From NCBI RefSeq assembly GCF_028292925.1, contig NZ_JAQGLK010000053.1, positions 1 to 64,000 of the forward strand: 64,000 nucleotides of DNA, read 5' to 3'. Origin of the DNA: Sphingomonas bacterium (lineage in GTDB: Bacteria > Pseudomonadota > Alphaproteobacteria > Sphingomonadales > Sphingomonadaceae). How positions within the stretch are numbered: position 1 is the first letter of the stretch; each line of letters begins with the position of its first letter. The notes beneath the pieces are model-generated. The model ran no database searches. It saw nothing but the letters and a program-made list of their open reading frames with translations, and was not told where the DNA came from. Shown here piece by piece: positions 16,449-30,615 of this stretch. The position numbers and the translations under genes were made by a program.

Positions 16449-17084
16449 TCAGCTGATATAATGCGCGGTCGTCTTGGCGGCCACCTCGTCGGCGGTGACG
16501 CCGGGGGCGAGCTCGACCAGCTTGAACGGGGTCTGGTGATCGGGCCGCTGGAACACGCACAGATCGGTCACGATCATGTCCACCACATTCTGGCCGGTCA
16601 GCGGCAGCGTGCACGCCGGGATGAACTTGGCTTCGCCGTTCTTGGCATTGTGCTCCATCACGACGATGATCTTCTTTACCCCGGCGACGAGGTCCATCGC
16701 CCCGCCCATCCCCTTCACCATCTTGCCGGGGATCATCCAGTTGGCGATGTCGCCATTTTCCGAAACCTCCATCGCGCCCAGCACGGTCAGGTCGATATGG
16801 CCGCCGCGGATCATCGCGAAGCTGTCGGCCGACGAGAAGTAGCTCGACGACGGCAGCTCGCTGATCGTCTGCTTGCCGGCGTTGATCAGATCGGGATCAA
16901 CCTCGTCGTCATACGGGAACGGCCCGATGCCCAGCATCCCGTTTTCCGACTGGAGCGTCACCTCGACCCCGGCGGGGATGTTGTTGGCCACAAGCGTCGG
17001 GATGCCGATGCCCAGGTTGACGTAGAAGCCATCCTGCAGCTCGCGCGCGGCGCGTGCCGCCATCTGGTTGCGGTCCCAGGGCAT
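16449..17084 (-). CDS. 3-oxoacid CoA-transferase, subunit B
   Basis: Beta subunit of a succinyl-CoA:3-ketoacid (or acetoacetate) CoA-transferase, which moves CoA between acids to feed ketone bodies or beta-keto acids into the citric acid cycle. The 211-residue protein carries [14 protein letters not shown], then [10 protein letters not shown] whose Glu forms the covalent acyl-CoA intermediate, and GGAMDLVAG. The ATG at 17084 comes one base after the stop of the acid phosphatase gene, which itself separates it from subunit A. Exact substrate (acetoacetate versus oxoadipate) cannot be read from sequence. Confidence 0.92.
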
Positions 17085-17085
17085 G

Positions 17086-17985
17086 TCAGTTCGGCTCCTT
17101 GCGATTGCTGTCCGCTGGATCGCGCCAGCGCTTGTCCGCGGGAAAGATGTCGTCAATGCCCCCCGCCAGCGCCGGGCCATAGACCGGGTTCGGCAGCACG
17201 AACCAGCCACGCCCCCACAGCCGATCGACCGGCGGGCTGCCGGTCGCCACCCGCCGGGCGGTGACGCTGCCGACGCTGCGGAACAGATCGCTGAAATCGC
17301 CGAGCTGATCGCCGCCCAACGCCATCACGCAAAAACGCGCCGCGATCCGCGCACGGCGCATGTCCTTGCGCGATCCGGTAGCGTCGTCGCCGGACAGGAA
17401 CAGGGTTTCGCCGTGCACCGCAGGCCCGAGCCCGGCCGCTTCGATCGCCGCCCGGCTCTCCGCCGCGTTGGCGGCCTTGCGATTGCTGTTGAAGATCACC
17501 GTCAGCCCCATCGCCCGCAGCCTGGCCAGCGCCTCGGCGGCGCCGGGTGCGGCGACCGTGCTGGCACCGCCGGTCTTCTCGAACCGGTCCCACCGCGCTT
17601 CGTCGAAGCTGTTGGCGCCGCGGGCGAGATCGTCTGCCTCGGCGCCCAGGTTCAGAAGTACCGTTTCGTCGACGTCGAACACCGCAGCGGGCGGTTTTCC
17701 CGCGCACGACACGAAGCGCGGCGCCGCCAGCGTGGCGTCGTCAGCCAGCACGACGCCGCTGCGATCCTTGCCGGCCAGCCGCGATGCCACATGGTCGATC
17801 ACCGCGTTCCACGTCTGCCGGCTGATCGCCGCGCCCTCGCCCGAGCCGTAGAGATACTGCATGCCGCGCAACTGCGGCGGCTCCGCACGCAGCGCCTGGG
17901 CCGGGGGGACGGACACGCGGCGCATCTCGACCGGGGTGCACCCCGCCAGCGCAAGGCCCGCCGCCACCAGCGCGACCGGACGCAT
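17086..17985 (-). CDS. HAD-superfamily acid phosphatase lipoprotein
   Basis: A 299-residue lipoprotein: the signal peptide ends in the lipobox LAGC at about residue 15, so it should be anchored to a membrane facing the periplasm. The catalytic HAD motif I is FDVDETVL with nucleophile and acid/base Asp. Motif II is the Asn/Ser of IFNSNRK and motif III lies around [12 protein letters not shown], a layout typical of class B/C secreted acid phosphatases. The ATG overlaps the stop of scoA (TGATG), and its own stop is one base before scoB, so it sits inside the CoA-transferase operon. A GTG one codon upstream is possible. Confidence 0.88.
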
Positions 17986-18716
17986 CACACCTCGCTGCCG
18001 GCCGTCGCTGGCCCCGCATCGCGCTGCCGGACGGTGCGGAACTCGATCTTCTTGTCGTAGGGGGCGCCGAGGACGAGCCGCTTGATGTAGATGCCCGGCA
18101 CGTGGATCGCATCGGGGTCGAGGCTGCCGACCGGCACGATCTCCTCGACCTCGGCGACGGTCATGTAGCTGGCGGTGGCGGCGGGCTGATTGAAGTTGCG
18201 CGTGGTCTTGCGGAACATCAGGTTGCCGCTCTCGTCCGCCTTCCAGCCCTTGATGATCGACAGATCGGCACGGATGCCGCGTTCGAGGACGTAGGTTTCG
18301 CCGTCGAACTCCTTGGTTTCCTTGCCCTCGGCCACGATCGTGCCGACCCCGGTCTTGGTGTAGAAGCCGGGGATCCCCGCGCCGCCTGCGCGCATCCGCT
18401 CAGCCAGCGTGCCCTGCGGGCAGAACTCGACCTCCAGTTCGCCGGCCAGATACTGGCGCTCGAATTCCTTGTTCTCGCCCACGTAGGAGGAGATCATCTT
18501 GGCGACCTGCCGGGTGCGCAGCAGCTTGCCGAGCCCCTCATTGTCGATCCCGGCATTGTTCGACGCGACCGTCAGCCCGGTGACGCCGGAGGCCTGGATC
18601 GCATCGATCAGCCGTTCGGGGATGCCGCACAGCCCGAAACCCCCGGCGCAGATGGTCATGCCGTCGAACAGCAGCCCGTCCAGCGCGGACCGGGCATCGG
18701 GATAGACTTTCTGCAC
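17985..18716 (-). CDS. 3-oxoacid CoA-transferase, subunit A
   Basis: Alpha subunit of the CoA-transferase, 243 residues. The N-terminus contains the family signature CAGGFGLCGIPERLI, followed by ASNNAGIDNEGLG; further on GAGIPGFYTKTGVGT and GNLMFRKTTRNFN match the succinyl-CoA:3-ketoacid type. The start was placed at a GTG (18716) because GGAGA lies eight bases upstream; the open frame further upstream does not resemble the family. It faces the dioxygenase gene across a 170-base divergent region containing a perfect palindrome. Confidence 0.92.
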   Translation of the reverse strand: MQKVYPDARSALDGLLFDGMTICAGGFGLCGIPERLIDAIQASGVTGLTVASNNAGIDNEGLGKLLRTRQVAKMISSYVGENKEFERQYLAGELEVEFCPQGTLAERMRAGGAGIPGFYTKTGVGTIVAEGKETKEFDGETYVLERGIRADLSIIKGWKADESGNLMFRKTTRNFNQPAATASYMTVAEVEEIVPVGSLDPDAIHVPGIYIKRLVLGAPYDKKIEFRTVRQRDAGPATAGSEV

Positions 18717-18758
18717 GCATCGTCTCCACGATCTTCGTGCGCCAGATAGGCGCCCGCG

Positions 18759-18772
18759 TTGACGCGCGTCAA
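18759..18772. promoter_or_regulatory. 14-base perfect palindrome between scoA and the dioxygenase gene
   Basis: TTGACGCGCGTCAA is a perfect inverted repeat lying 43 bases before the scoA start and 115 bases before the dioxygenase start. It is in the only shared control region of the two divergent units, so it is a candidate operator. No regulator gene is adjacent, and its identity is unknown. Confidence 0.45.
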
Positions 18773-18886
18773 TCGCATGGGGGCGTTGGCGATTGCACGT
18801 CCGCCAGCACCATGGCATCTTCGTAACGAACGAGACGATCCCGGAAGATGCCGGGACGTGTGCGAGACGATGCGAGGAACATGACG

Positions 18887-20353
18887 ATGGCAGCGCGCGC
18901 CTTCCCCCCCAGCCTGCACTATCAGGGCCTGAATGCGCCGGTGCGGATGGAGATCGACATCCGCGACCTGCCTGTGGAGGGGGAAATCCCGGCCGAGATC
19001 GCCGGTGCCTTCTTCCGCGCGGTGCCCGATCCCGCGCACCCGCCGATGCTGGGGGAGGATGACAACGTGCTCTCCGGCGATGGCATGGTCGGCCGCTTCC
19101 TGATCGAGGACGGCCATGTCGATTATACGACCCGGTACGTCCGCACCGAGCGGTTCGAGGCGGAGCGCAAGGCGCGGCGGTCCCTTTTCGGCAAGTATCG
19201 CAACCCCTTCACGGACGATCCTTCCGTCGCCGGGGTAGACCGCACCGTCGCCAACACCACCCCGATCTGGCACGCGGGCCGGCTCTACATGACCAAGGAG
19301 GACGGCCGCGCCTACCGCGTGGATCCGATCACGCTGGAAACGATCGGCCGCTGGGACTGGAACGGGGCGCTGAAATCCGAGACGATGACGGCGCACGCCC
19401 GCATCGATCCGGAGACGAACGAGATGTTCGCCTATGGCTATGAGGCCGCCGGGCTCGCCAGCCGGCAGATCGCCTATTTCATCGTCGGCCCGGACGGGGA
19501 GCTGCAATCCGAGCAGTGGTTCGAGGCGCCATATGCCGCGATGGTCCACGATTTCGCGATCACCGAGAAATTCGCCATCTTCCCGCTCTTTCCGACCACC
19601 GCCGATCTCGATCGCCTGAAGGCCGGCGGGGCGCACTGGGTGCATCAGCAGGATGCACCCAGCTGGATCGGCATCATGCCGCGCTATGGCAAGGTGGACG
19701 AGATGGTGTGGATCGAAGGGCCGGCCGGGGTCCACGCCTACCACTTCATGAATGCCTTCGACGATAACGGCGCGATCCAGATCGACGTCTGCCTGTCGGA
19801 CACCAACGCCTTCCCGTTCATCCGCAGCGCCTCCGGCATCGATCGCCACCAGAGCACGGTCCGCAGCTCGCTCAGCCGGTGGACGATCGATCTCGAGGCG
19901 AAGGCGATCACGGAACGGGTCGTCGGCCCGCCCGGCGACCTGCCGATGATCGAGCGCAAGGATCAGGCACGCCCCTACGGCCACGGCTGGTACATCACCT
20001 ACGATCCGAACCAGGGCCCGCCGATCCCCGCCGGCCCGGTCGAGACGGCATGCAACACGCTGTTCCGGATCGAACCCGGCAACGGCCGGCTGGAGGCGCT
20101 GGGCCTCGGCCCGACGCGGGCGATCAACGAACCCGTCCACGTCCCCTCCTCCGATCCCGGCCATGGCGGCTGGCTGTTGGCGGTGGTGGACGAGCGCGCG
20201 GGCGACGGCTTCAAATCGGCCTTGTGGGTGATCGAGGCGAGCGACATCGCCAAGGGCCCGATCGCCACGGTGCCCGTGCCCGTGCCGATGCGCCCGCAGG
20301 TCCATGGCTGGTGGGTTCCGCAGGCGGAGCTTGAGGCAGCCGCCCGGGCCTGA
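18887..20353 (+). CDS. Carotenoid-cleavage-family dioxygenase, lignostilbene type
   Basis: Non-haem iron enzyme of the RPE65/CCO family, 488 residues. The four iron-binding histidines are visible: H170 (TAHAR), H221 (VHDFAI), H286 (HFMNA) and H473 (QVHGWW). Tyr104 in FGKYRNP and Lys137 in TKEDG are 33 residues apart. That is the spacing of Tyr101 and Lys134, which bind the 4-hydroxyl of stilbenes in lignostilbene dioxygenases, with the same +3 shift as the first two histidines. Cleavage of a phenolic stilbene to two aromatic aldehydes is therefore the best guess. ATG 18887 was chosen because GAGGA is eight bases upstream; 18881 and 18848 are alternatives. Downstream aldehyde dehydrogenases would use its products. 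Confidence 0.85.
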   Translation: MAARAFPPSLHYQGLNAPVRMEIDIRDLPVEGEIPAEIAGAFFRAVPDPAHPPMLGEDDNVLSGDGMVGRFLIEDGHVDYTTRYVRTERFEAERKARRSLFGKYRNPFTDDPSVAGVDRTVANTTPIWHAGRLYMTKEDGRAYRVDPITLETIGRWDWNGALKSETMTAHARIDPETNEMFAYGYEAAGLASRQIAYFIVGPDGELQSEQWFEAPYAAMVHDFAITEKFAIFPLFPTTADLDRLKAGGAHWVHQQDAPSWIGIMPRYGKVDEMVWIEGPAGVHAYHFMNAFDDNGAIQIDVCLSDTNAFPFIRSASGIDRHQSTVRSSLSRWTIDLEAKAITERVVGPPGDLPMIERKDQARPYGHGWYITYDPNQGPPIPAGPVETACNTLFRIEPGNGRLEALGLGPTRAINEPVHVPSSDPGHGGWLLAVVDERAGDGFKSALWVIEASDIAKGPIATVPVPVPMRPQVHGWWVPQAELEAAARA

Positions 20354-20383
20354 CCCCCGATCCTGCCGCCTGGGTCGCGGGCA

Positions 20384-21265
20384 TCAGCCCGGATAGGATC
20401 GCATCCTCAGCCATAGCTGCGGCAGGCGGCGCCCTTCCGGCACCACCGCCTGCGCGGTCTGCTGGCTCATGCCGGATCGCACCGCTGCGGCGATCTTGCT
20501 CTGGTCGGTTCGTGCGCAGGCGACATCGATCGCGTGGCTATAGGCGAAACGGTTGAGCAGGCGCGACGTCACGCCCGGCCGGGCATGCTCGTGCAGTTCC
20601 ACGATGATATCCGTGCGGCGCAGCGCGGGCACCCTGCCCGGATCGAGCAGGCCGTTCTCATATCCTTCGATGTCGACGATCAGCAGCGCCCGGTCGACGC
20701 CGGACAATCTTCCCTCCAGCTCGGAATGATCGCACCAGCCGCCGATCGTCACCCTGCCCGCGACCCCGTTCTCCGCGGCGAGGGCACGGACGAACTCCTG
20801 CGATTTCGGATCGACGTCATAGGCGAACACCGCGGTATCCGGGCTGCCGACGGCGAACCCGACGGCATAATAGCCCTCGGCCGAACCGACATCGACGACG
20901 GCATCGTAGCGGGCCGCCAGCGCTTCGGAGATCCAGGGTGCGATTTCCTCCTCATAGCTTCCCAGAAGCTTGGGGCCGAGCAGGCTCCCGGTGGAGCGGG
21001 TGAAGTAACGCATCCCGGCGAACGGCCCGGTCGCAAGCCGGGCCACGCCGGGATCGATCCCGAGGGCGGCCATCGCGGCGGCATTGCGCCGATCCGTGCC
21101 ATGCGCCGCCGAATCGTTCGCGCCGGCGGCCTTGCGCCGTCCGATGCCCGTGACGCCCCAGACCTGCTTGAGAAGCGCCTCGGCCACGGGAGAGACGAAA
21201 TACAGCCGTTCCGTCCACGTCTGCGCCCGTCGAACGTCCGTGATCGCGTCACCAATTTCGCTCAT
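20384..21265 (-). CDS. SAM-dependent methyltransferase, FkbM-like
   Basis: A 293-residue soluble protein. The SAM-binding Rossmann motif is VVDVGSAEGYYAVGF, followed by an acidic strand end (FAYDVDPKS) and LIVDIEGYENGLL, which resembles the DVEG..L motif of FkbM-type methyltransferases; a VELHEH segment follows. The N-terminal 100 residues are unusual and not recognised. Start is the ATG at 21265, with GGGAG seven bases upstream. It converges on the dioxygenase gene, 30 bases apart. Acceptor is unknown; O-methylation of a sugar or phenol is possible. Confidence 0.7.
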   Translation of the reverse strand: MSEIGDAITDVRRAQTWTERLYFVSPVAEALLKQVWGVTGIGRRKAAGANDSAAHGTDRRNAAAMAALGIDPGVARLATGPFAGMRYFTRSTGSLLGPKLLGSYEEEIAPWISEALAARYDAVVDVGSAEGYYAVGFAVGSPDTAVFAYDVDPKSQEFVRALAAENGVAGRVTIGGWCDHSELEGRLSGVDRALLIVDIEGYENGLLDPGRVPALRRTDIIVELHEHARPGVTSRLLNRFAYSHAIDVACARTDQSKIAAAVRSGMSQQTAQAVVPEGRRLPQLWLRMRSYPG

Positions 21266-21390
21266 GCCCCGACTCCCGCACATCGATCCGGAGACGGGAT
21301 TTACCTATCGTCGGGCCGCGGGAGCGGGGAACCTCATCCGATGTGACTTCACTCGGACGGTCGGCTGGCTCCCCGCCCGCGCGCGTGGGA

Positions 21391-22308
21391 TCAGGTAAGA
21401 TCGCCCAGCGCGATCTTCGTGCCCGCCGCGGCCGCCTTGTTCGCTTCGCGGCGGAGGTGCTCGATGTGGAGCCGCCCCTCCGGCACATCGCCCTGGGGCA
21501 ACGCGGCCATCGTCATTTCGTATATTTCCTGAATGTCGGGGCCATGCTCCGGGTGGGTGAGGATCAGGCCCTTGTTGTCGCGGATGCCTTGCACCGTCTT
21601 CTCGCCGACTTCCTCGGGATCCATGCCCAGATCGAAGCCGGTGCCGAATTGTGCCAGTTCCGCCTCGTCGACCTTGCCGAGCCCGCTGTCGGCAAACTGA
21701 TCGGGCCGTTTCAGCGCCGAATCCCAGGCGTTGGTGCGGGTGAGGCCGGGGCACATCAGCGAAACGCCGATATTATGCGGCGCCAGATTATAGCGCAGGC
21801 ATTCGGTGAGGCCGCGGACGGCGAACTTGGACGCGGTGTAGATCCCCGCCTGCGGCCCGGCGATGAACGCGGCCATCGATGCGACGTTGACGATGTGCCC
21901 GCCCTCGCCATGCGCCTTGATCTTCGGGATGAAGCTCACCTGGCCGTTGACGACCCCGCCGAAGTTCACCCCCATGATCCAGTCGAAATCATCGTAGGTC
22001 GCCTCGTCGGTCGGCCCGAACACGCTGACCCCGGCATTGTTGACCAGGATGTGCACCTTGCCGAACGCATGCTCCACCTCGTCGGCGGCGGCGGCAAAGC
22101 CGGCCCGATCCGACACGTCGAGTCGGATCATCAGCGGCGCGGGAAAGCCTGCCTGCGCAAACCATTCGATCGCCGCATCGCGGTGGGTTTCGTTGCGATA
22201 GCTGAGCGCCAGTTCGCATCCCGCCCGTGCCAGCGCCTTGGCGATGCCGAGGCCGATGCCCGATACGCCGCCGGTGACGAACGCCGTCCGCCCCTCGAGA
22301 TCCTGCAT
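21391..22308 (-). CDS. Short-chain dehydrogenase/reductase
   Basis: NAD(P)-dependent oxidoreductase of 305 residues. The classical SDR pattern is complete: nucleotide loop TGGVSGIG (12-19), NNAG at 90-93, catalytic Ser144, Tyr157 and Lys161 in YTASK. The C-terminal 55 residues beyond the core (PEEVGEKTVQGI onward) are longer than usual and are shared by a subset of SDRs that act on bulky alcohols. A GAGG-type ribosome site precedes the ATG. It is divergent from the second SDR gene, with a shared 107-base promoter region. Substrate is unknown; an aryl or benzylic alcohol would suit the neighbourhood. Confidence 0.88.
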   Translation of the reverse strand: MQDLEGRTAFVTGGVSGIGLGIAKALARAGCELALSYRNETHRDAAIEWFAQAGFPAPLMIRLDVSDRAGFAAAADEVEHAFGKVHILVNNAGVSVFGPTDEATYDDFDWIMGVNFGGVVNGQVSFIPKIKAHGEGGHIVNVASMAAFIAGPQAGIYTASKFAVRGLTECLRYNLAPHNIGVSLMCPGLTRTNAWDSALKRPDQFADSGLGKVDEAELAQFGTGFDLGMDPEEVGEKTVQGIRDNKGLILTHPEHGPDIQEIYEMTMAALPQGDVPEGRLHIEHLRREANKAAAAGTKIALGDLT

Positions 22309-22360
22309 CCTTCCCTCCCCCTGCCATTGTGGTTCGCTGCTGCGGCTGCGCGCAGTTCGA

Positions 22361-22389
22361 TTGACATGGCAAAGCAGCGGGGCATGGTG
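22361..22389 (+). promoter_or_regulatory. Possible sigma-70 promoter for the SDR-ALDH-decarboxylase operon
   Basis: TTGACA at 22361-22366 is a consensus -35 box. The -10 position, 17 bases downstream (ATGGTG), is a poor match. It lies 27 bases before the TTG start of the SDR gene, so it could drive the whole plus-strand run. Confidence 0.35.
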
Positions 22390-22415
22390 AAGCGAAATCA
22401 CGGAGAGGATCGGGA

Positions 22416-23225
22416 TTGAGCGGTCTTGAGGGCGAGGTAGCACTGGTTACCGGCGGGGGACGCGGCTTCGGTCGGGCGATCAGCATGGCGCTTGCGTCGG
22501 CAGGCGCATCGGTGGGCGTGATCGCGCGCAGCCGCGACCAGATCGACGAGGTGGCCGGCGCGATCGAGTCGGCGGGCGGGCGCGCGCTGGCCGTCACGTG
22601 CGACGTCACCGATCGCGCGCAGGTCGCCGATGCCGTGGCTGCGGTCTCCCGGCGGTTCGGGCCGGTCTCCTTTCTCGTCAACAATGCCGGTATCGCCGGC
22701 CCCTACGGCCCGATCGCGGAAACGGATCCCGATGCGTGGTGGCAGGCACAGAAGATCCATCTCTATGCGCCGCTGCTGTTCTCCAGCGCGGTGCTGCCGG
22801 GGATGCTGGCGCGGGGCGGCGGCCGGATCGTCAACATCGCCAGTCGCGCCGCGATCATGTTCCAGCCGGGCCTGTCCGCCTATGTCGTCGGCAAGTCGGC
22901 GCAGGTGAAGTTCACCGAGCACCTCGATGCCGAGACGCGCGACAAGGGGGTGCGCGCCTTCGCCCTCCAGCCCGGCGACGCGCCGACCGAATTTGCCCAC
23001 GCGACGATCAACGATCCCGGCGCAAAGGAGCATCTGCCGGGCATGCTGGAGATCCTCGGCAAATGGGTCGATGAGGTCGATCCCCGGCCGGTGCTCGACA
23101 AGTGCGCCGAAAAGGTCGTCGCGATCGCGGAAGGACGCTGGGACCGGATTGCCGGCCAGTATCTGGATGTGGACTGGGACTGGAACACCACCGCCGCGAC
23201 GGAACGGCAGACCCGCCACGATTGA
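22416..23225 (+). CDS. Short-chain dehydrogenase/reductase
   Basis: A 269-residue SDR with TGGGRGFG as nucleotide loop (12-19), NNAG at 89-92, Ser143, and Tyr156/Lys160 in YVVGK. Translation starts at TTG with GAGG eight bases upstream; the next in-frame candidates would cut off the nucleotide-binding strand. It opens a plus-strand run (SDR, aldehyde dehydrogenase, decarboxylase, transporter) with small gaps, so it is the first gene of an operon. The C-terminus (GQYLDVDWDWNTT) is not typical of fatty acid reductases, which favours a catabolic alcohol or diol substrate. Confidence 0.9.
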   Translation: MSGLEGEVALVTGGGRGFGRAISMALASAGASVGVIARSRDQIDEVAGAIESAGGRALAVTCDVTDRAQVADAVAAVSRRFGPVSFLVNNAGIAGPYGPIAETDPDAWWQAQKIHLYAPLLFSSAVLPGMLARGGGRIVNIASRAAIMFQPGLSAYVVGKSAQVKFTEHLDAETRDKGVRAFALQPGDAPTEFAHATINDPGAKEHLPGMLEILGKWVDEVDPRPVLDKCAEKVVAIAEGRWDRIAGQYLDVDWDWNTTAATERQTRHD

Positions 23226-23273
23226 CGGCGCAGCACTGCTGCCGAAACCCTGACATTTGAATGGAGAGACGAG

Positions 23274-24719
23274 TTGGCCGAAGGCTATGACACCGAACTG
23301 AAGCTCTTCATCGACGGCGAATGGATCGGCGCGGAGGGACGCGACACCCACATCGTCGTCAACCCGGCCACGGGCGAGGCGCTGGGCGCGCTGCCGCTGG
23401 CCAACGCCGACGATCTCGATCGGGCGCTGGATGCGGCGGCGCGCGGCTTCAGGATCTGGCGCGCGGCGCCGGCCGACCAGAAAGCGGCGGTGCTCTCCGG
23501 CGCGGCGCGGCTGCTGCGCGAGCGGATCGACCGGGTCGCCCGCATCGCCACGATGGAGGAAGGCAAGCCGCTGCCCGAGGCCCGCGGCGAGGTGATGATG
23601 GCCGCCAACCTCTTCGATTTCTACGCGGGCGAGGTGAAGCGGATCTATGGCCGCGTCCTCGTGCGCCCGGCGGGCACGCTCAGCCGGGTGATGAAGGAGC
23701 CGGTCGGCCCCATAGCGGCCTTCTGCCCGTGGAACTTCCCGATCGGCAATCCCGCGCGCAAGCTGGGTGCGGCGGTGGGCGCCGGCTGCTCGATCGTCGT
23801 CAAGCCGCCGGAGGAAGCGCCGGGCTCCGCGATCGAGGTGCTGAAGGCGCTGCTGGATGCCGGGTTGCCGAAGGAAGTCGCCAGCATGGTGTTCGGCGTG
23901 CCCGACACCGTCTCGCGCCACCTGATCGCCTCGCCCGTCACCCGCAAGGTCAGCTTCACCGGATCCGTGCCCGTCGGCAAGCACCTGGCGAAGCTCGCCG
24001 CCGAGCAGATGATGCGCACCACGATGGAGCTGGGCGGGCATGGCCCCGTGCTGGTGTTCGACGATGCCGATCTCGATCGCACGCTCGATCTGCTGGTGCC
24101 GCACAAGTTCCGCAACTCCGGCCAGGTGTGCGTGTCGCCGACCCGCTTCTACGTGCAGGAAGGCATTTACGACCGCTTCGTCCGCGAGTTCGCCGAGCGG
24201 GCAGGCAAGCTGAAGGTCGGTGACGGGCTGGACGCGGCGTCGAACATGGGGCCGATGGCGAACCCGCGCCGGCCGGATGCCATCGAGGCGTTCGTCGAGG
24301 ATGCGGTGAAGGTCGGCGCACGTGTTGCCGCCGGCGGGACGCGGGGCGGCGGCACCAGCGATGGCGGCTTCTTCTTCCGCCCGACGGTGCTGGCGGACGT
24401 GCCGCTGGAGGCGCGGATCATGAACGAGGAGCCGTTCGGCCCGATCGCGCTGATGCGCCCGTTCAAGACGTTCGACGAGGCGATCGAGCAGGCCAACCGC
24501 CTGCCCTATGGCCTGGCCGCTTATTGCTTCACCGAGAATGGCCGCCGTGCCCTTCTGCTCGGCGATGCGATCGAGAGCGGGATGATCGGCATCAACACCG
24601 TCGGCATCGGCGGCGCGGACTCCCCCTTCGGTGGCGTCAAGGATTCGGGCCACGGATCCGAGGACGGACCCGAGGGGCTGGAGGCCTGCCTCGTCACGAA
24701 GGCCATTCACCAGGCCTGA
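23274..24719 (+). CDS. NAD(P)-dependent aldehyde dehydrogenase
   Basis: A 481-residue ALDH. Catalytic residues are present: Asn154 in CPWNFP, Glu252 in MELGGH and Cys286 in NSGQVCVSPTRF, with the cofactor loop FTGSVPVG. The sequence is closest in feel to the succinate-semialdehyde/aryl-aldehyde branch (N-terminal LFIDGEW, VCVSPTRFYV). A TTG start with GGAGAG six bases upstream is used, 48 bases after the SDR gene. With the dioxygenase and decarboxylase nearby, oxidation of an aromatic aldehyde to a carboxylate is likely; the exact substrate is not deducible. Confidence 0.92.
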   Translation: MAEGYDTELKLFIDGEWIGAEGRDTHIVVNPATGEALGALPLANADDLDRALDAAARGFRIWRAAPADQKAAVLSGAARLLRERIDRVARIATMEEGKPLPEARGEVMMAANLFDFYAGEVKRIYGRVLVRPAGTLSRVMKEPVGPIAAFCPWNFPIGNPARKLGAAVGAGCSIVVKPPEEAPGSAIEVLKALLDAGLPKEVASMVFGVPDTVSRHLIASPVTRKVSFTGSVPVGKHLAKLAAEQMMRTTMELGGHGPVLVFDDADLDRTLDLLVPHKFRNSGQVCVSPTRFYVQEGIYDRFVREFAERAGKLKVGDGLDAASNMGPMANPRRPDAIEAFVEDAVKVGARVAAGGTRGGGTSDGGFFFRPTVLADVPLEARIMNEEPFGPIALMRPFKTFDEAIEQANRLPYGLAAYCFTENGRRALLLGDAIESGMIGINTVGIGGADSPFGGVKDSGHGSEDGPEGLEACLVTKAIHQA

Positions 24720-24748
24720 GCGTACAGGAACCTATTCGGAGCGAAGAC

Positions 24749-25798
24749 ATGACCGAACTGAAGACCGGCGGTGCCCAGGGCTATCTGCGCATCGCCACCG
24801 AGGAAGCATTCATCACCCAGGGCGTACTCGACGCCTATATGCGGCTCGTCGCGGAAGGGTTCGACGATCCGGGTTTCGCCAGCCTGTGGGGCTTCTATTC
24901 CAGCTCGCCTTCCGCGCGCGGCGTGCAGATCCGCGACGGGCTGCTCTCGCTCGGCACCAAGCGCCTGGCCGATATGGATGCGGCGGGGATCGACAAGGGC
25001 ATCATCGCCCTCACCGCGCCTGGCACCCACGTCTTCCAGGCGGACGAGGCCAAGGCGCTGACGACGGATGCGAACGACCAGCTGGCGGAGGCGTGCCGCG
25101 CACATCCCGACCGTTTCGTGGGGATGACGGCGATCGCCCCGGCCGATCCGGCATGGTCCGCGCGGGAGATCCAGCGCGGCGCGGATCTTGGCTTCAAGGC
25201 GGTGATCCTGAACGGCCACGTCAACGGCGAATATACCGATCACGAAAAGTACTTCCCGATCTTCGAGGCCGCCGAGGCGCTCGGCACGCCGATCTACCTG
25301 CACCCGCAGGGGCCATCGAAGGGGCTGATCGCGCCGCTGCTGGAACGCGGGCTCGACGGAGCGGTGTACGGCTTCGGCGTCGATACCGGGCTGCACCTGC
25401 TGCGGCTGATCGTGACGGGCGTGTTCGATCGCTTTCCGAACCTGAAGCTGATCGTCGGCCATGGCGGTGAGGCGCTGCCTTACTGGTCGTACCGCCTGGA
25501 TTACATGCATGCAGCGGGTGTGAGGTCGAACCGGTACGAGTTCCTGAAGCCGCTGAAGCTCGGCGCGATCTCGGCCTATCTGAAGACGAACGTGTTCGTC
25601 ACCTTCTCGGGCATGGCGTTCCCGCCGGCGATCCGCTTCTGCAAGGAAGTGCTGGGGATGGAACGGATCATGTACGCCATGGACTACCCGTACCAGTACG
25701 AACCCGACGAGGTTTCGGCGCAGGACGACATGGAGCTGAGCCCGGAGGACAAGCGCGCCTTCTTCCAGACCAACGCCGAACGCATCTTCAACCTCTGA
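24749..25798 (+). CDS. Amidohydrolase-family aromatic decarboxylase, LigW-like
   Basis: A 349-residue TIM-barrel protein of the ACMSD/gamma-resorcylate decarboxylase group. Its opening (LKTGGAQGYLRIATEEAF), the SLWGFYSSSPSAR stretch, DYMHAAGVRS and MDYPYQY follow LigW, the 5-carboxyvanillate decarboxylase of Sphingobium SYK-6, as I remember it. Expected Mn-binding and catalytic residues are Glu19, His185 in YLHPQ, His238 in VGHGGE and Asp312 in MDYPY. It would remove a ring carboxylate placed next to a phenol. The ATG has GGAG upstream; its TGA overlaps the transporter start. Substrate is inferred, not shown. Confidence 0.82.
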   Translation: MTELKTGGAQGYLRIATEEAFITQGVLDAYMRLVAEGFDDPGFASLWGFYSSSPSARGVQIRDGLLSLGTKRLADMDAAGIDKGIIALTAPGTHVFQADEAKALTTDANDQLAEACRAHPDRFVGMTAIAPADPAWSAREIQRGADLGFKAVILNGHVNGEYTDHEKYFPIFEAAEALGTPIYLHPQGPSKGLIAPLLERGLDGAVYGFGVDTGLHLLRLIVTGVFDRFPNLKLIVGHGGEALPYWSYRLDYMHAAGVRSNRYEFLKPLKLGAISAYLKTNVFVTFSGMAFPPAIRFCKEVLGMERIMYAMDYPYQYEPDEVSAQDDMELSPEDKRAFFQTNAERIFNL

Positions 25799-27459
25799 TG
25801 GCCAGCGAAGCGCCCGTCGCGCCCGTCGCGCATCCGCAGCTGGCGATCACCGGCGCCAAGCTGGGCGGCGGGCGCAGCTGGTACGTCCTCATCCTGCTCA
25901 CGCTGGTCGCCTCGGTCAGCCTGCTCGACCGCCAGATCATCACGATCCTGGCGGTCGACATCAAACGCGATCTCGGCCTCAACGACAGCGAGGTGGGGCT
26001 GATCTACGGCACCTTCTTCGCGATCTTCTATGCCCTGTTCTCGATTCCGCTCGGCCGGCTGGCGGACGGCTGGGTACGTACCCGGCAGGTCGCGCTGGCC
26101 CTCGGCGGGTGGTCGCTCGCCACGATCGGCTGCGCCTTTGCGGGCGGCTTCGCATCGATGTCGGCCTGGCGCGTCGGCGTTGCGATAGGCGAGGCGGGAG
26201 CCGGCCCGGCCGCCTATTCGCTCGTCGCGGATCTCTTCCCCAAGGCGAAGCGGGCCACCGCGTTCGCGATCTACGGATCGTCCTCGGCGATCGGTGTCGG
26301 CCTGTCGATCGCGATCGGGGGCATCGTCGTCGATGCCTGGAACCGCGCCTTCCCCGGCGGTGTCGGCTGGTTCGGGCTGGTCGGCTGGCAGGCGGCGTTC
26401 ATCGTGGCGGCTCTGCCCGGCTTCGTCCTGGGTGTGCTCATCCTTCTCGTCCGCGAACCGCTGCGCGGCATTTCGGACGGCATCATCCAGCCGCCCGAGG
26501 CGCATCCCTTCCGCAAGGCAGGGGGCGAGCTGATGGCGCTGGTGCCGCCTTTCTCCTTCCTCAATCTGCAGCGGATCGGCGCGGGGATCGGCGCGCGCCG
26601 GCGCAACCTCGGCTATCTGGCGCTGGCCGTCGCCTTCGTCGCCGGGATGACGGCCGCGGTCCACGCGATGATCCCGCCGGACAAGCTCAAGATCTACACC
26701 ACGGTCCTCGGCATCCGCGTTACCAGCCACCTCGTCCAGTGGGCGATCGTCGGGTTCGGCGGCTATGCCGCTTTCTCGTGGATACAGGCGCAGCGGGTCC
26801 GGGATCCGGTGGCGGCAAAGGTCATGTGGTCCAGCCCGACGTTCATCGCGATGATCGTCATCGCCTCGTTCAACCTGCTGCTCAATTACGGCTATTCGGC
26901 GTGGATGGCGCCCTATGCCGTCATCACCTTCCATGCGCCGATGGCCGAGGTCGGCATCAAGCTTGGCCTTGCCGCGGGCGTGGCGGGCGGGGCCGGCACG
27001 ATCGTGGGCGGCGTCGTCGGCGACTGGGCGCGCAAGCGTACGCCCACCGGGCGGATGTGGGTGCTGCTGTTCTGCACCTTCGTGCCGCTGCCGATGGCGT
27101 TCATCACCCTCAGCCAGACGACGCTCGATTCGTACCTGGCGTGGCTGCTCGCCTCCAGCTTCATTCTCACCGGCTGGTTTCCCTGCTGCACGGCGACGCT
27201 GCACGATCTGGTGTTGCCGCGGATGCGTGGCACCGCCACCGCGATCCTGTATCTGGGCATCACGATCATCGGCATGGGCACCGGGCCATACGTCGTCGGC
27301 ACCGTCAGCGACGTGACCGGCAGCCTCAGCCGCGCGATTCTGACCGGCTATTCCGCCTCCGTCGTCGTGTGGATCGCGATCTTCGTGGCGATGCGCCATC
27401 TGGCCCGCGACGAGGCGACCCTGCTCGACCGCGCACGCTCCGCCGGCGAGCCCGTCTGA
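25798..27459 (+). CDS. MFS transporter, probable uptake of aromatic compound
   Basis: A 553-residue major facilitator with about 12 helices. Residues 1-28 are a flexible cytosolic tail, then LLTLVASVSLLDRQIITILAVDI opens helix 1, and GRLADGWVRTRQVAL is the conserved loop between helices 2 and 3. The pattern LLDRQII and GEAGAGPAAYSLVADLFP puts it in the Spns/aromatic-acid group. It starts at the ATG overlapping the decarboxylase stop. A central loop of about 60 residues contains IRVTSHLVQ, longer than in most MFS proteins. Position inside the operon implies it carries that pathway's substrate. Confidence 0.85.
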   Translation: MASEAPVAPVAHPQLAITGAKLGGGRSWYVLILLTLVASVSLLDRQIITILAVDIKRDLGLNDSEVGLIYGTFFAIFYALFSIPLGRLADGWVRTRQVALALGGWSLATIGCAFAGGFASMSAWRVGVAIGEAGAGPAAYSLVADLFPKAKRATAFAIYGSSSAIGVGLSIAIGGIVVDAWNRAFPGGVGWFGLVGWQAAFIVAALPGFVLGVLILLVREPLRGISDGIIQPPEAHPFRKAGGELMALVPPFSFLNLQRIGAGIGARRRNLGYLALAVAFVAGMTAAVHAMIPPDKLKIYTTVLGIRVTSHLVQWAIVGFGGYAAFSWIQAQRVRDPVAAKVMWSSPTFIAMIVIASFNLLLNYGYSAWMAPYAVITFHAPMAEVGIKLGLAAGVAGGAGTIVGGVVGDWARKRTPTGRMWVLLFCTFVPLPMAFITLSQTTLDSYLAWLLASSFILTGWFPCCTATLHDLVLPRMRGTATAILYLGITIIGMGTGPYVVGTVSDVTGSLSRAILTGYSASVVVWIAIFVAMRHLARDEATLLDRARSAGEPV

Positions 27460-27476
27460 ATACCGGCGCCTTACCG

Positions 27477-27507
27477 AAGCACCCAAGCCCCCCCAAGCAC
27501 CCAAGCC
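27477..27507. repeat. Short direct repeat before the second aldehyde dehydrogenase
   Basis: The 13-base unit AAGCACCCAAGCC occurs at 27477-27489 and again at 27495-27507, an 18-base period, just before the ribosome site CAGGAGAG. It may be a slippage product or a leader element. Confidence 0.6.
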
Positions 27508-27522
27508 TCAGGAGAGAAACCC

Positions 27523-29022
27523 ATGGCCACCCTCGCCCCGCAGCCCGACTTTTCGGAAAAGGTCCGCGGTTTCCTCGATCGGGAGACCAAGCTGCTGATC
27601 GACGGCAAGTGGGTGGCATCGACCGGATCGAAGACGGTCGAGACGCACGATCCCTCCACCGGCAAGTCGATCGCGCATTTGATCGATGCGAGCGACGAGG
27701 ACGTCAACCGCGCCGTGGCCGCGGCCCGCCGCGCCTTCGATGACGGTCGCTGGTCGGGCCTGCCTGCCGCGCAGCGCGAGCGGATCATGCTCAAGTTCGC
27801 CGATCTGATCGAGGCGCATGCCGAGGAACTGGCCGAGCTGGAATCGATCGACAACGGCAAGCCGCGCTTCTTCGCCGCCCATGTCGATATCCCCGCGGCG
27901 ATCGCGCAGTTCCGCTACCAGGCGGGTTGGGCGACCAAGCTGCACGGCAACCACCACGCACCCTCCAGCGCACCCGAGGGCGCCTTCCACGCTTATGTCC
28001 GGCGCGAGCCGCTCGGCGTGGCGGCGCTGATCGTGCCGTGGAACTTCCCGCTGCTGATGGCGGCGCTGAAGCTCGCCCCCGCGCTCGCCGCCGGCTGCAC
28101 GATGATCCTGAAGCCGGCCGAGCAGACCAGCCTCAGCGCGCTGCGGCTGGGCGATCTGTTCCAGGAGGCGGGGATCCCCGACGGCGTGGTCAACATCCTG
28201 ACCGGCCTGGGCGAGACGGTGGGCGACGCGCTGGTGCGCCACCCCGATGTCGACAAGGTGGCGTTCACCGGCTCCACCAACGTCGGCAAGATCATCACCC
28301 GCACCGCCGCCGACACGTTGAAGCGGGTCACGCTGGAACTGGGCGGAAAATCCCCGGTCATCATGATGCCCGATGTCGACATGGAGCAGGCGACCGGGGG
28401 TGCGGCCAACGCGATCTTCTTCAATGCGGGCCAGGTCTGCGTCGCGGGATCGCGGCTCTATGCCCACAAGAGCATCTTCGACAAACTGGTCGAGGGGGTG
28501 GCGGATGCCGCGTCCAAGCTGAAGCTCGGGCCGTCCCTCCACGCCGAGTCCCAGATGGGGCCGCTCGTCTCGTCGGAACAGCGCGACCGCGTGCTGTCGT
28601 ACATCGAGAGCGCGCGCACCCAGGGCGCATCGATCGTGACAGGGGGCGAGGGGCATGGCGATGGCGGCTACTTCGTCCAGCCGACGGTGATCGCCAATGT
28701 CGACCGCGACATGAAGGTGATGCGGGAGGAGATATTCGGCCCCGTCGTCTGCGCGACCCGCTTCGACGATCTCGACGAGGTGGCGCGCCATGCCAACGAT
28801 ACCGAATTCGGGCTCGCGGCATCGGTGTGGACCAAGGATGTCAGCACCATGCACAAGCTGGCGGCGAAGATCAAAGCGGGCACGATCTGGGGCAACTGCC
28901 ACTCGATGATCGATGCATCGCTCCCGTTCGGTGGGTACAAGCAGTCGGGCGCCGGCCGCGAGCAGGGTCTGGAAGGCGTGCTCAACTATACCGAGACCAA
29001 GACGGTGATCATCGCGCTCTGA
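27523..29022 (+). CDS. Aldehyde dehydrogenase (class 1/2 type)
   Basis: A 499-residue ALDH with Asn174 in VPWNFP, Glu272 in LELGGKSP and Cys306 in NAGQVCVAGSRLY, plus the NAD loop FTGSTNVG. Length and the C-terminal GGYKQSGAGREQG match the tetrameric class 1/2 enzymes related to phenylacetaldehyde and coniferyl aldehyde dehydrogenases. It starts 64 bases after the transporter with a CAGGAGAG site upstream, so it is probably part of the same operon. It may oxidise one of the two aldehydes made by the dioxygenase; this is inference from context. Confidence 0.92.
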   Translation: MATLAPQPDFSEKVRGFLDRETKLLIDGKWVASTGSKTVETHDPSTGKSIAHLIDASDEDVNRAVAAARRAFDDGRWSGLPAAQRERIMLKFADLIEAHAEELAELESIDNGKPRFFAAHVDIPAAIAQFRYQAGWATKLHGNHHAPSSAPEGAFHAYVRREPLGVAALIVPWNFPLLMAALKLAPALAAGCTMILKPAEQTSLSALRLGDLFQEAGIPDGVVNILTGLGETVGDALVRHPDVDKVAFTGSTNVGKIITRTAADTLKRVTLELGGKSPVIMMPDVDMEQATGGAANAIFFNAGQVCVAGSRLYAHKSIFDKLVEGVADAASKLKLGPSLHAESQMGPLVSSEQRDRVLSYIESARTQGASIVTGGEGHGDGGYFVQPTVIANVDRDMKVMREEIFGPVVCATRFDDLDEVARHANDTEFGLAASVWTKDVSTMHKLAAKIKAGTIWGNCHSMIDASLPFGGYKQSGAGREQGLEGVLNYTETKTVIIAL

Positions 29023-29030
29023 TCCGCGCC

Positions 29031-29064
29031 GCGCCCCCTTCGCCTTTCCGGCCGGAGGGGGCGC
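29031..29064 (+). terminator. Hairpin after the second aldehyde dehydrogenase gene
   Basis: GCGCCCCCT at 29031-29039 is perfectly complementary to AGGGGGCGC at 29056-29064, and the loop contains CCGGCCGG. There is no T run, so this may be a weak terminator or an mRNA-stabilising hairpin. Confidence 0.4.
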
Positions 29065-29076
29065 ATCGCGGCTGGC

Positions 29077-29101
29077 GATCATTGAAACAATCGTTATGAT
29101 C
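29077..29101. promoter_or_regulatory. Inverted repeat before the third aldehyde dehydrogenase gene
   Basis: GATCAT (29077-29082) is mirrored by ATGATC (29096-29101) around an AT-rich core that itself contains ATTG-AAA-CAAT. It lies 26 bases before the GTG start in an otherwise GC-rich gap, so it is a candidate operator or promoter core. Confidence 0.4.
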
Positions 29102-29127
29102 GGGGGAAATAGACGAGAGGACCTGGC

Positions 29128-30615
29128 GTGACCGACATCCTGCTGCCCGAGGGCGTGACCCTGGCCCACCCCGACAGGCTGTTCATCGGCGGCGAATGGG
29201 TGTTGCCGCAGGGCGGCGGCCGCATCGAGATCGTCTCCCCGAACACCGAACAGGTCGTCGCCTTCGTGGCGGAGGCGGGTGAGGCAGACATGGACGGGGC
29301 CGTCGCCGCCGCCCGCGCCGCCTTCGATCGCGGGCCGTGGCCGACGATGCCGCCGGCCGAGCGCGCCGCGCGGATGCAGGCGATGCTCGATTGGCTGAAG
29401 GCCCGACATGGCCAGATGGCGCTCTGCCAGACCGCGCAGATGGGGGCGCTGGCGACGATGGCGCCGTTCCTGGTGGCGGGCGGCAGCGAGACGCTGGAGC
29501 GCAATATCGGCTATGCCGCCAAGTTCGACTGGGTGAAGCGGCGCGAGACGAACGTGCCGGGCAAAACAGCGTTCATCGCCCACGAGGCGGTCGGCGTGGT
29601 CGCCTGCATCGCGCCCTGGAACGTTCCCTATTCGACGATGATGGGCAAGGTCGCGCCCGCGCTGATCGCCGGCTGCACGATCATCATGAAGCCTTCGCCC
29701 GAAACCCCGCTGGAGGCCTATTTCATTGCCGAGGCTGCCGAGGCGGCCGGGATTCCCGCCGGCGTCGTCAACCTCGTCCCTTCGCACCGCGATGCTGCCG
29801 ACTATCTCGTCCGCCGCTCCGGCGTGGACAAGATCAGCTTCACCGGATCGACCGTGGCCGGCCGCCGCATCGCCAGCGTCGCGGGGGAGCGGATCGCCCG
29901 CGTCACCCTCGAACTGGGCGGGAAATCGGCGGCGATCGTGCGAGACGACATGCCGACCGAGCTTGCCGCCAAGATCCTCGGCCGCACGATCACGATGCTC
30001 TCCGGCCAGATCTGCGCGACGCTGAGCCGCGCCATCGTTCCCGCCGCCCGCCACGACGAGATCGCCGACGCGATCGCAGCCGAGATGAAGCTGGTGAAGA
30101 TCGGCTATTCGGACGATCCGGCAACCGAAATGGGTCCGGTCGCGATGAAGCGGCAGCTCGACCGGGTCGAGGACTATATCGCCAAGGGCAAGGCCGACGG
30201 CGCCGACCTGCTTACCGGCGGCACCCGGCCGAGCCACCTCAACCGCGGCTACTTCATCGAGCCGACCCTGTTTGCCAATGTCGACAACAAGTCGGCGATT
30301 GCGCAGGAGGAGATATTCGGGCCGGTGCTGGCGCTCATCAAGGCGGACGATGAGGATCATGCGATCGCGCTGGCCAACGACACGATCTACGGCCTGAACA
30401 ATTCGGTGCTGACGCAGGATGCCGACGCCGCCTACCGGATCGCCCGGCGGCTACGATCCGGCGGGTTCAACCAGAATGGGCTCGGCGCGGATTTTTCCCT
30501 GCCGTTCGGCGGGTTCAAGCAGTCCGGCATCGGCCGCGAGGGCGGGCCGGAGGGGCTGCACGCCTATCTTGAATCCAAGACGATGCTGCTCGACGCTGCG
30601 CCCGCCGGGCTCTGA
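29128..30615 (+). CDS. Aldehyde dehydrogenase
   Basis: A 495-residue ALDH with Asn165 in APWNVP, Glu262 in LELGGKSAAI and Cys296 in SGQICATLSRA. Replacement of the common GQVCxA by GQICAT and NVP in place of NFP set it in a different branch from the two ALDH genes upstream. It has its own gap of 105 bases with an inverted repeat, so it may be separately controlled. GTG is the start, with AGAGG seven bases upstream. Substrate unknown; the cluster setting suggests another aromatic or side-chain aldehyde. Confidence 0.9.
   Translation: MTDILLPEGVTLAHPDRLFIGGEWVLPQGGGRIEIVSPNTEQVVAFVAEAGEADMDGAVAAARAAFDRGPWPTMPPAERAARMQAMLDWLKARHGQMALCQTAQMGALATMAPFLVAGGSETLERNIGYAAKFDWVKRRETNVPGKTAFIAHEAVGVVACIAPWNVPYSTMMGKVAPALIAGCTIIMKPSPETPLEAYFIAEAAEAAGIPAGVVNLVPSHRDAADYLVRRSGVDKISFTGSTVAGRRIASVAGERIARVTLELGGKSAAIVRDDMPTELAAKILGRTITMLSGQICATLSRAIVPAARHDEIADAIAAEMKLVKIGYSDDPATEMGPVAMKRQLDRVEDYIAKGKADGADLLTGGTRPSHLNRGYFIEPTLFANVDNKSAIAQEEIFGPVLALIKADDEDHAIALANDTIYGLNNSVLTQDADAAYRIARRLRSGGFNQNGLGADFSLPFGGFKQSGIGREGGPEGLHAYLESKTMLLDAAPAGL

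Follow-up and report, generated by a model that had tools for sequence, protein, structure and literature searches.

A probable lignin-stilbene locus in a Sphingomonas bacterium that may combine parts of beta-1 and beta-5 dimer catabolism

Which lignin dimers would be served by a locus that places a lignostilbene dioxygenase (LSD) close to a LigW-type decarboxylase? The question arose in a 64,000-nucleotide stretch (the window), which represents contig C199 of a 2.8-Mb, 95% complete Sphingomonas bacterium assembly. Seven of the nine genes across 18887–30615 are on the plus strand, the dioxygenase gene among them. The enzymes are of known kinds; their order in the locus has not been described before. 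Taken together they form a compact gene set whose products probably cleave two-ring stilbenes from lignin and process the aldehydes and acids so formed to vanillate and ferulate.

The dioxygenase gene (18887–20353, plus strand, PF03055; alternative starts at 18848 and 18881) encodes an LSD of the NOV2/LsdA type. Its product passed the NCBIfam NOV2 lignostilbene dioxygenase model NF053780 (819 bits, cut-off 650), but fell below the cut-offs of the other lignostilbene dioxygenase model, NF053778 (458 bits, cut-off 800), and, by far, of the apocarotenoid model NF052295 (175 bits, cut-off 675). In the LSD tree it lies inside the NOV2 clade (SH-aLRT 99). The solved structures in the PDB closest to it by sequence are lignostilbene dioxygenases, and the top fold matches of its AlphaFold model (pLDDT 81, 11 sequences; segment 49–64, which includes Leu62, below 50) are 5V2D, LsdA, LSD4 and NOV1, with carotenoid enzymes much later. 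The protein thus does not group with carotenoid-cleaving enzymes, a placement named beforehand as counting against a stilbene-cleaving role, and we reject that identity.

Alignment and a position check in NOV1/LSD4 numbering put the iron ligands at His170, His221, His286 and His473 and equate Tyr104 and Lys137 with the Tyr101/Lys134 pair, so the sequence-only reading was right that all six residues are kept. It missed the third conserved pocket residue: Phe59 of LSD4 and NOV1, which in LSD4 stacks on the guaiacyl ring (PMC8191317), is Leu62 in the window dioxygenase. Likewise Ser283 is Tyr285. At position 59 all NOV2-clade members carry Leu or Ile, and at 283 Phe or Tyr; NOV1/LsdD-clade members carry Phe and Ser, respectively. 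An LsdD/NOV1-type dioxygenase is rejected, since Leu62, Tyr285, the NOV2-clade position and the NF053778 score are all contrary to it. In SYK-6, LSD5 and LSD6 have Phe at 283 and favour lignostilbene over DCA-S, a stilbene that arises from phenylcoumarans (PMC8191317); because the Leu62/Tyr285 pocket resembles theirs at 283, lignostilbene would be the likelier substrate here. Changing residue 283 alone in LSD4, which cleaves DCA-S at about 10^6 M-1 s-1, left the relative preference between DCA-S and lignostilbene unaltered. NOV2 itself has been placed in beta-1 catabolism (PMC11323797).

SDR1 (21391–22308, minus strand) is, by structure matches and clade, an LdpB-like Calpha ketone reductase/dehydrogenase. 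The Calpha-dehydrogenases 4YA6, 4Y98 and 4YAE are among its four best solved structures. Its clade of 13 rows (SH-aLRT 100) has 10 members beside an ldpA-like SnoaL lyase gene, nine of these pairs being seen in full, while L107 shows the lyase with the SDR outside its match list; for one clade member, L069, no ldpA-like gene lies nearby in the stretch examined. Belonging to a clade with SDRs found beside ldpA was our mark of an LdpB, and SDR1 bears it. In SYK-6, ldpB and ldpA have adjacent locus tags (PMC12997858). The clade context of SDR1 points to beta-1 catabolism. No LdpA gene was found in the window locus; the LdpA-clade gene of the genome is on another contig, C155 (SH-aLRT 99). It scored 346 bits against 8ABT, whose record says only SnoaL-like protein and which we take to be LdpA itself.

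The LigW-type decarboxylase (24749–25798, plus strand, amidohydrolase-2), putatively acting on 5-carboxyvanillate or 5-carboxyferulate, found its best PDB match in Novosphingobium LigW (4INF, 474 bits), followed by the 5-carboxyvanillate decarboxylase 4ICM (234 bits), with other families at 141 bits or less. It grouped with characterised LigW rather than with gamma-resorcylate or ACMS decarboxylases, so the grouping outside LigW that had been named as a danger to the LigW-like assignment was not seen. Glu19, His185, His238 and Asp312, its putative metal ligands, are invariant in 17 relatives, and a check of catalytic positions also found Arg57, Arg249 and Tyr315; these we take to be the window counterparts of the LigW Mn ligands and catalytic Arg/His. 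The 5-carboxyvanillate decarboxylase structures 4INF/4QRN share the family and the same putative metal ligands, but are ~60% identical to the window lineage, and the window protein falls apart from them, in a clade that also holds gammaproteobacterial sequences.

ALDH1 (23274–24719, plus strand, TTG start) precedes LigW by a 29-bp spacer and shares 64% identity with the N. subterraneum (L101) gene in the FerD position. It thus shows both features by which we recognised FerD, identity above 50% and a ligW neighbour, and it adjoins LigW in most related loci. A genome-wide scan yielded 80 loci, among which the order ALDH1–LigW–MFS recurs, often with SDRs and a SnoaL-like gene before it and a minus-strand NOV1/LsdD-type dioxygenase after it. 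With 1126 bits to 5J53, the L101 dioxygenase is undoubtedly NOV1-like, and the gene order there fits the numbers Saro_0793–0802, whose described neighbourhood is SDR-SDR-MFS-pcfL-ferD-ligW-MFS-lsdD (PMC11323797, PMC12997858). PcfL, LsdD, FerD and LigW from that cluster convert dehydrodiconiferyl alcohol to vanillin/vanillate and ferulate (PMC11323797, PMC12997858), and N. aromaticivorans FerD and LigW have been shown to turn 5-formylferulate into ferulate (PMC11323797). Since the L101 order matches a cluster of demonstrated chemistry, ALDH1 is by homology FerD-like, presumptively acting on 5-formylferulate, and the cassette chemistry is known. The gene combination, which the sequence-only reading did not recognise, is therefore for the most part that of a known lignin-dimer cluster.

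The likeness to Saro_0793–0802 of Novosphingobium aromaticivorans (ligO, ligN, pcfL, ferD, ligW, lsdD), read via the N. subterraneum locus, covers the ALDH–LigW–MFS order and the nearby SDRs and lignostilbene dioxygenase. The window locus differs in having no pcfL, no DUF2490 gene, a NOV2-type rather than LsdD-type dioxygenase, different SDRs, two extra ALDHs and a FerD–LigW pair of another lineage. Neither PcfL nor LsdD genes, our marks of a Novosphingobium-type beta-5 (DC-A) pathway, were found in the locus, nor was any phenylcoumaran ring-opening enzyme (PcfL or PhcC/D/F/G).

Because the LSD and SDR1 are kept in the window while the LdpA-clade gene is on C155, we read the locus as a composite of part of a beta-1 (diarylpropane) module and the FerD–LigW finishing step of beta-5 catabolism, with a probability of roughly 0.55. 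Families, pocket residues, neighbourhoods and the presence of downstream genes come directly from the sequence, and from them we infer every substrate and the joint working of both modules, as follows. In the dioxygenase, four His would hold Fe(II), and Tyr104 and Lys137 would bind a 4-hydroxyaryl ring; the enzyme would cleave a lignostilbene-like compound at its interphenyl double bond, releasing two aromatic aldehydes, vanillin or substituted vanillin. SDR1 would ready beta-1 dimers for the LdpA lyase, whose gene lies elsewhere in the genome. ALDH1 would oxidise a formyl group on the ring, such as that of 5-formylferulate, and LigW would remove the resulting ring carboxylate, giving ferulate or vanillate, with ALDH2 and ALDH3 oxidising vanillin or side-chain aldehydes and the MFS permease importing aromatic acids. 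Products would pass through LigM-like O-demethylation to the protocatechuate 4,5-cleavage pathway. The genome carries two LigM-like O-demethylases, one checked against the PDB and the other a clear paralogue by eye, and on contig C69 a LigB (447 bits to 1B4U) beside a LigA-like gene and probable LigC/J/U, named from translations.

It had been proposed that all these genes serve a single route, from stilbene cleavage through aldehyde oxidation to removal of a ring carboxylate. The dioxygenase and LigW families hold; the route as a whole is not established, given a NOV2-type LSD, an SDR1 tied to beta-1 and the missing PcfL and PhcC/D/F/G. The composite reading has its own difficulty: lignostilbene would yield vanillin only, for which FerD and LigW are not needed, so a beta-1 dioxygenase leaves its linkage to FerD–LigW functionally unexplained.

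That linkage is unusual. Among the family genomes, 37 have a close LigW and 35 of these also carry a NOV2-type LSD; in the other surveyed family genomes it lies 11 kb to 3 Mb from LigW when on the same contig; the window genome, at 5.9 kb (start to start), is the sole exception. LsdD-like genes in surveyed family genomes are 3–15 kb from LigW. The window arrangement is kept, across two contigs, in the sole other genome of the genus, where the cluster (L063) contains two MFS genes and neither ALDH3 nor the methyltransferase-like gene. Being mostly conserved in this one genome, the cluster is more than chance. The nearest named match of the LigW region is the MAG Sphingomonas bacterium RYN_517, at 85%. 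Outside the family, in the alphaproteobacterial MAG locus L150, the 3' end of a NOV2-like LSD gene (49%) overlaps the start of LigW.

The same observations bear on a linear beta-5 pathway, which we consider possible but doubtful. In it the NOV2-type dioxygenase takes LsdD's role and cleaves DCA-S to vanillin and 5-formylferulate, ALDH1 and LigW convert the latter to ferulate, and a PcfL-like step is encoded elsewhere, at C159 or C155. Spacing below 6 kb in the window genome alone, retention of the linkage in the same-genus genome and the L150 overlap all favour it, as does an assembly (~5% short of complete) in which no LsdD orthologue was found, the best other LSD being 43% identical. The pocket speaks against it, since the NOV2-clade pattern (Leu59, bulky 283) is like that of the lignostilbene-preferring LSD5/LSD6 at 283; so do the retention of wild-type DCA-S cleavage by a SYK-6 LSD6 mutant and a further LSD in the genome (C90) with Phe59 and Thr283. 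The PcfL-like genes at C159 and C155, ~45% identical to the PcfL-position gene, were rejected as PcfL on falling outside its clade in the tree.

Other loci share parts of this make-up. SYK-6 SLG_12580–12860 (lsdA/LSD6, ldpB, ldpA, ldpC, ligW2, lsdD) co-locates an LSD, LdpB and a LigW-family enzyme, as does the window locus; LSD6 has Phe at 283 and was compared with the window dioxygenase by residue. The SYK-6 set is spread over many genes with ldpA and lsdD, whereas the window locus is compact and has neither. In L084 (Parvularcula sp.) and L147 (an alphaproteobacterial MAG) the order is NOV2-type LSD, SDR1, LdpA, with SDR–FerD–LigW–MFS–LsdD following within a few genes; the NOV2-type LSD adjoins SDR1, and FerD–LigW–MFS is within ~10 kb. 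These loci contain LdpA and a second, LsdD-type LSD, both absent from the window locus.

The FerD–LigW pair has its own ancestry. In quick trees without bootstrap, LigW and ALDH1 of the genus each grouped with three gammaproteobacterial MAG sequences (76–79% and 79–83% identity, respectively; SH-aLRT 100 for both). Neither falls among the other sphingomonad sequences, to which LigW is 53–62% identical; thiG next door shares 77–83% identity with its full-length counterparts in the family's other genera. As the pair is closest to Steroidobacteraceae-type gammaproteobacteria, the simplest reading is horizontal transfer, in either direction; MAG binning could mislead, yet three separate MAGs agree. 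Movement of the FerD–LigW finishing cassette between alpha- and gammaproteobacteria is thus suggested. A mobile-element origin was rejected: the long repeats are only matches between ALDH paralogues, no tRNA adjoins, and GC is near that of the flanks. The thiG neighbours gave no empty insertion site, scoAB not being found beside thiG in other genera.

A somewhat more speculative and rather unlikely extension is that in this genus the NOV2-type dioxygenase, of a kind assigned to beta-1 dimers, was recruited into a FerD–LigW cassette exchanged with Steroidobacteraceae-type bacteria and does LsdD's beta-5 stilbene cleavage. One locus would then serve two lignin linkages. Lignin-dimer pathways are being transferred to industrial hosts, and a compact natural fusion of a NOV2-type dioxygenase with FerD–LigW would be a useful alternative part; it also tests how far LSD clades can substitute for one another.

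Least probable is cleavage of another phenolic alkene, either the diguaiacylbutadiene of pinoresinol catabolism by a PinU-like enzyme or a plant stilbene (piceatannol, resveratrol), with the neighbours as general aromatic-aldehyde clean-up: in strain LY pinU and pinZ are coupled, the F199 pinZ homologue Saro_2808 adjoins Saro_2809 (NOV2), and NOV2 cleaves piceatannol well, but the locus has no pinZ-like reductase gene and the SDR1 linkage favours ldpA instead.

The remaining genes fit around these modules. As the sequence-only reading had it, two SDRs, three ALDHs, the LigW-like decarboxylase and the MFS permease were all recovered from open reading frames and Pfam/NCBIfam models, and the plus-strand run (22416–30615) has close or overlapping starts, with a 1-base overlap of the LigW and MFS frames and other spacers of ~30–105 bp. 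SDR2 (22416–23225, plus strand, TTG start, PF00106; 84% identity in the same-genus genome) possibly oxidises an alcohol side chain. The MFS permease gene (25798–27459, plus strand, PF07690) comes after LigW in most related loci, and its product probably takes up aromatic acids. ALDH2 (27523–29022, plus strand) is phenylacetaldehyde-dehydrogenase-like, below cut-off for the StyD model (630 bits, cut-off 850); kept in the same-genus genome at 92% identity, it is a candidate vanillin or coniferaldehyde oxidiser. ALDH3 (29128–30615, plus strand, PF00171) ends the run. The orphan gene at 20384–21283 (minus strand), with a methyltransferase-like motif VVDVGSAEGYYA and no Pfam or NCBIfam match, is missing in the same-genus genome, and a search of 59 genomes gave only two weak matches; it is probably outside the pathway.

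Upstream, on the minus strand (16449–18718), scoB (16449–17090), a HAD phosphatase gene and scoA (17985–18718), the sco genes named from translation and the earlier reading, are probably flanking genes rather than pathway genes. They are divergent from the dioxygenase gene as had been described, but scoA and scoB are not directly adjacent: the acid-phosphatase-like HAD gene (17086–17988, minus strand) intervenes, with short overlaps. In the same-genus genome (L064) the scoA–scoB interval is only ~165 bp. The whole of that contig (G034:C143) is palindromic, running scoB-scoA-LSD and then LSD-scoA-scoB at equal identities, probably an assembly artefact.

Other lignin-dimer genes were noted in passing. 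At L150:8589–11056 the NOV2-like LSD and LigW are followed by an ALDH and then an LdpA-like gene, a close FerD homologue being absent nearby. A gammaproteobacterial bog MAG (L074:4449–16865) carries FerD–LigW, a second LigW-family gene, Calpha-dehydrogenase-like SDRs and LigE/LigF-like GSTs, named by eye, which would place lignin-dimer genes beyond sphingomonads. In the window genome, an LdpA/PcfL-family lyase gene on C159 (L191:8096–16890) lies near MFS-, GMC-oxidoreductase- and GST-like genes (neighbours by eye), and this stretch is likely a second dimer-catabolism locus.
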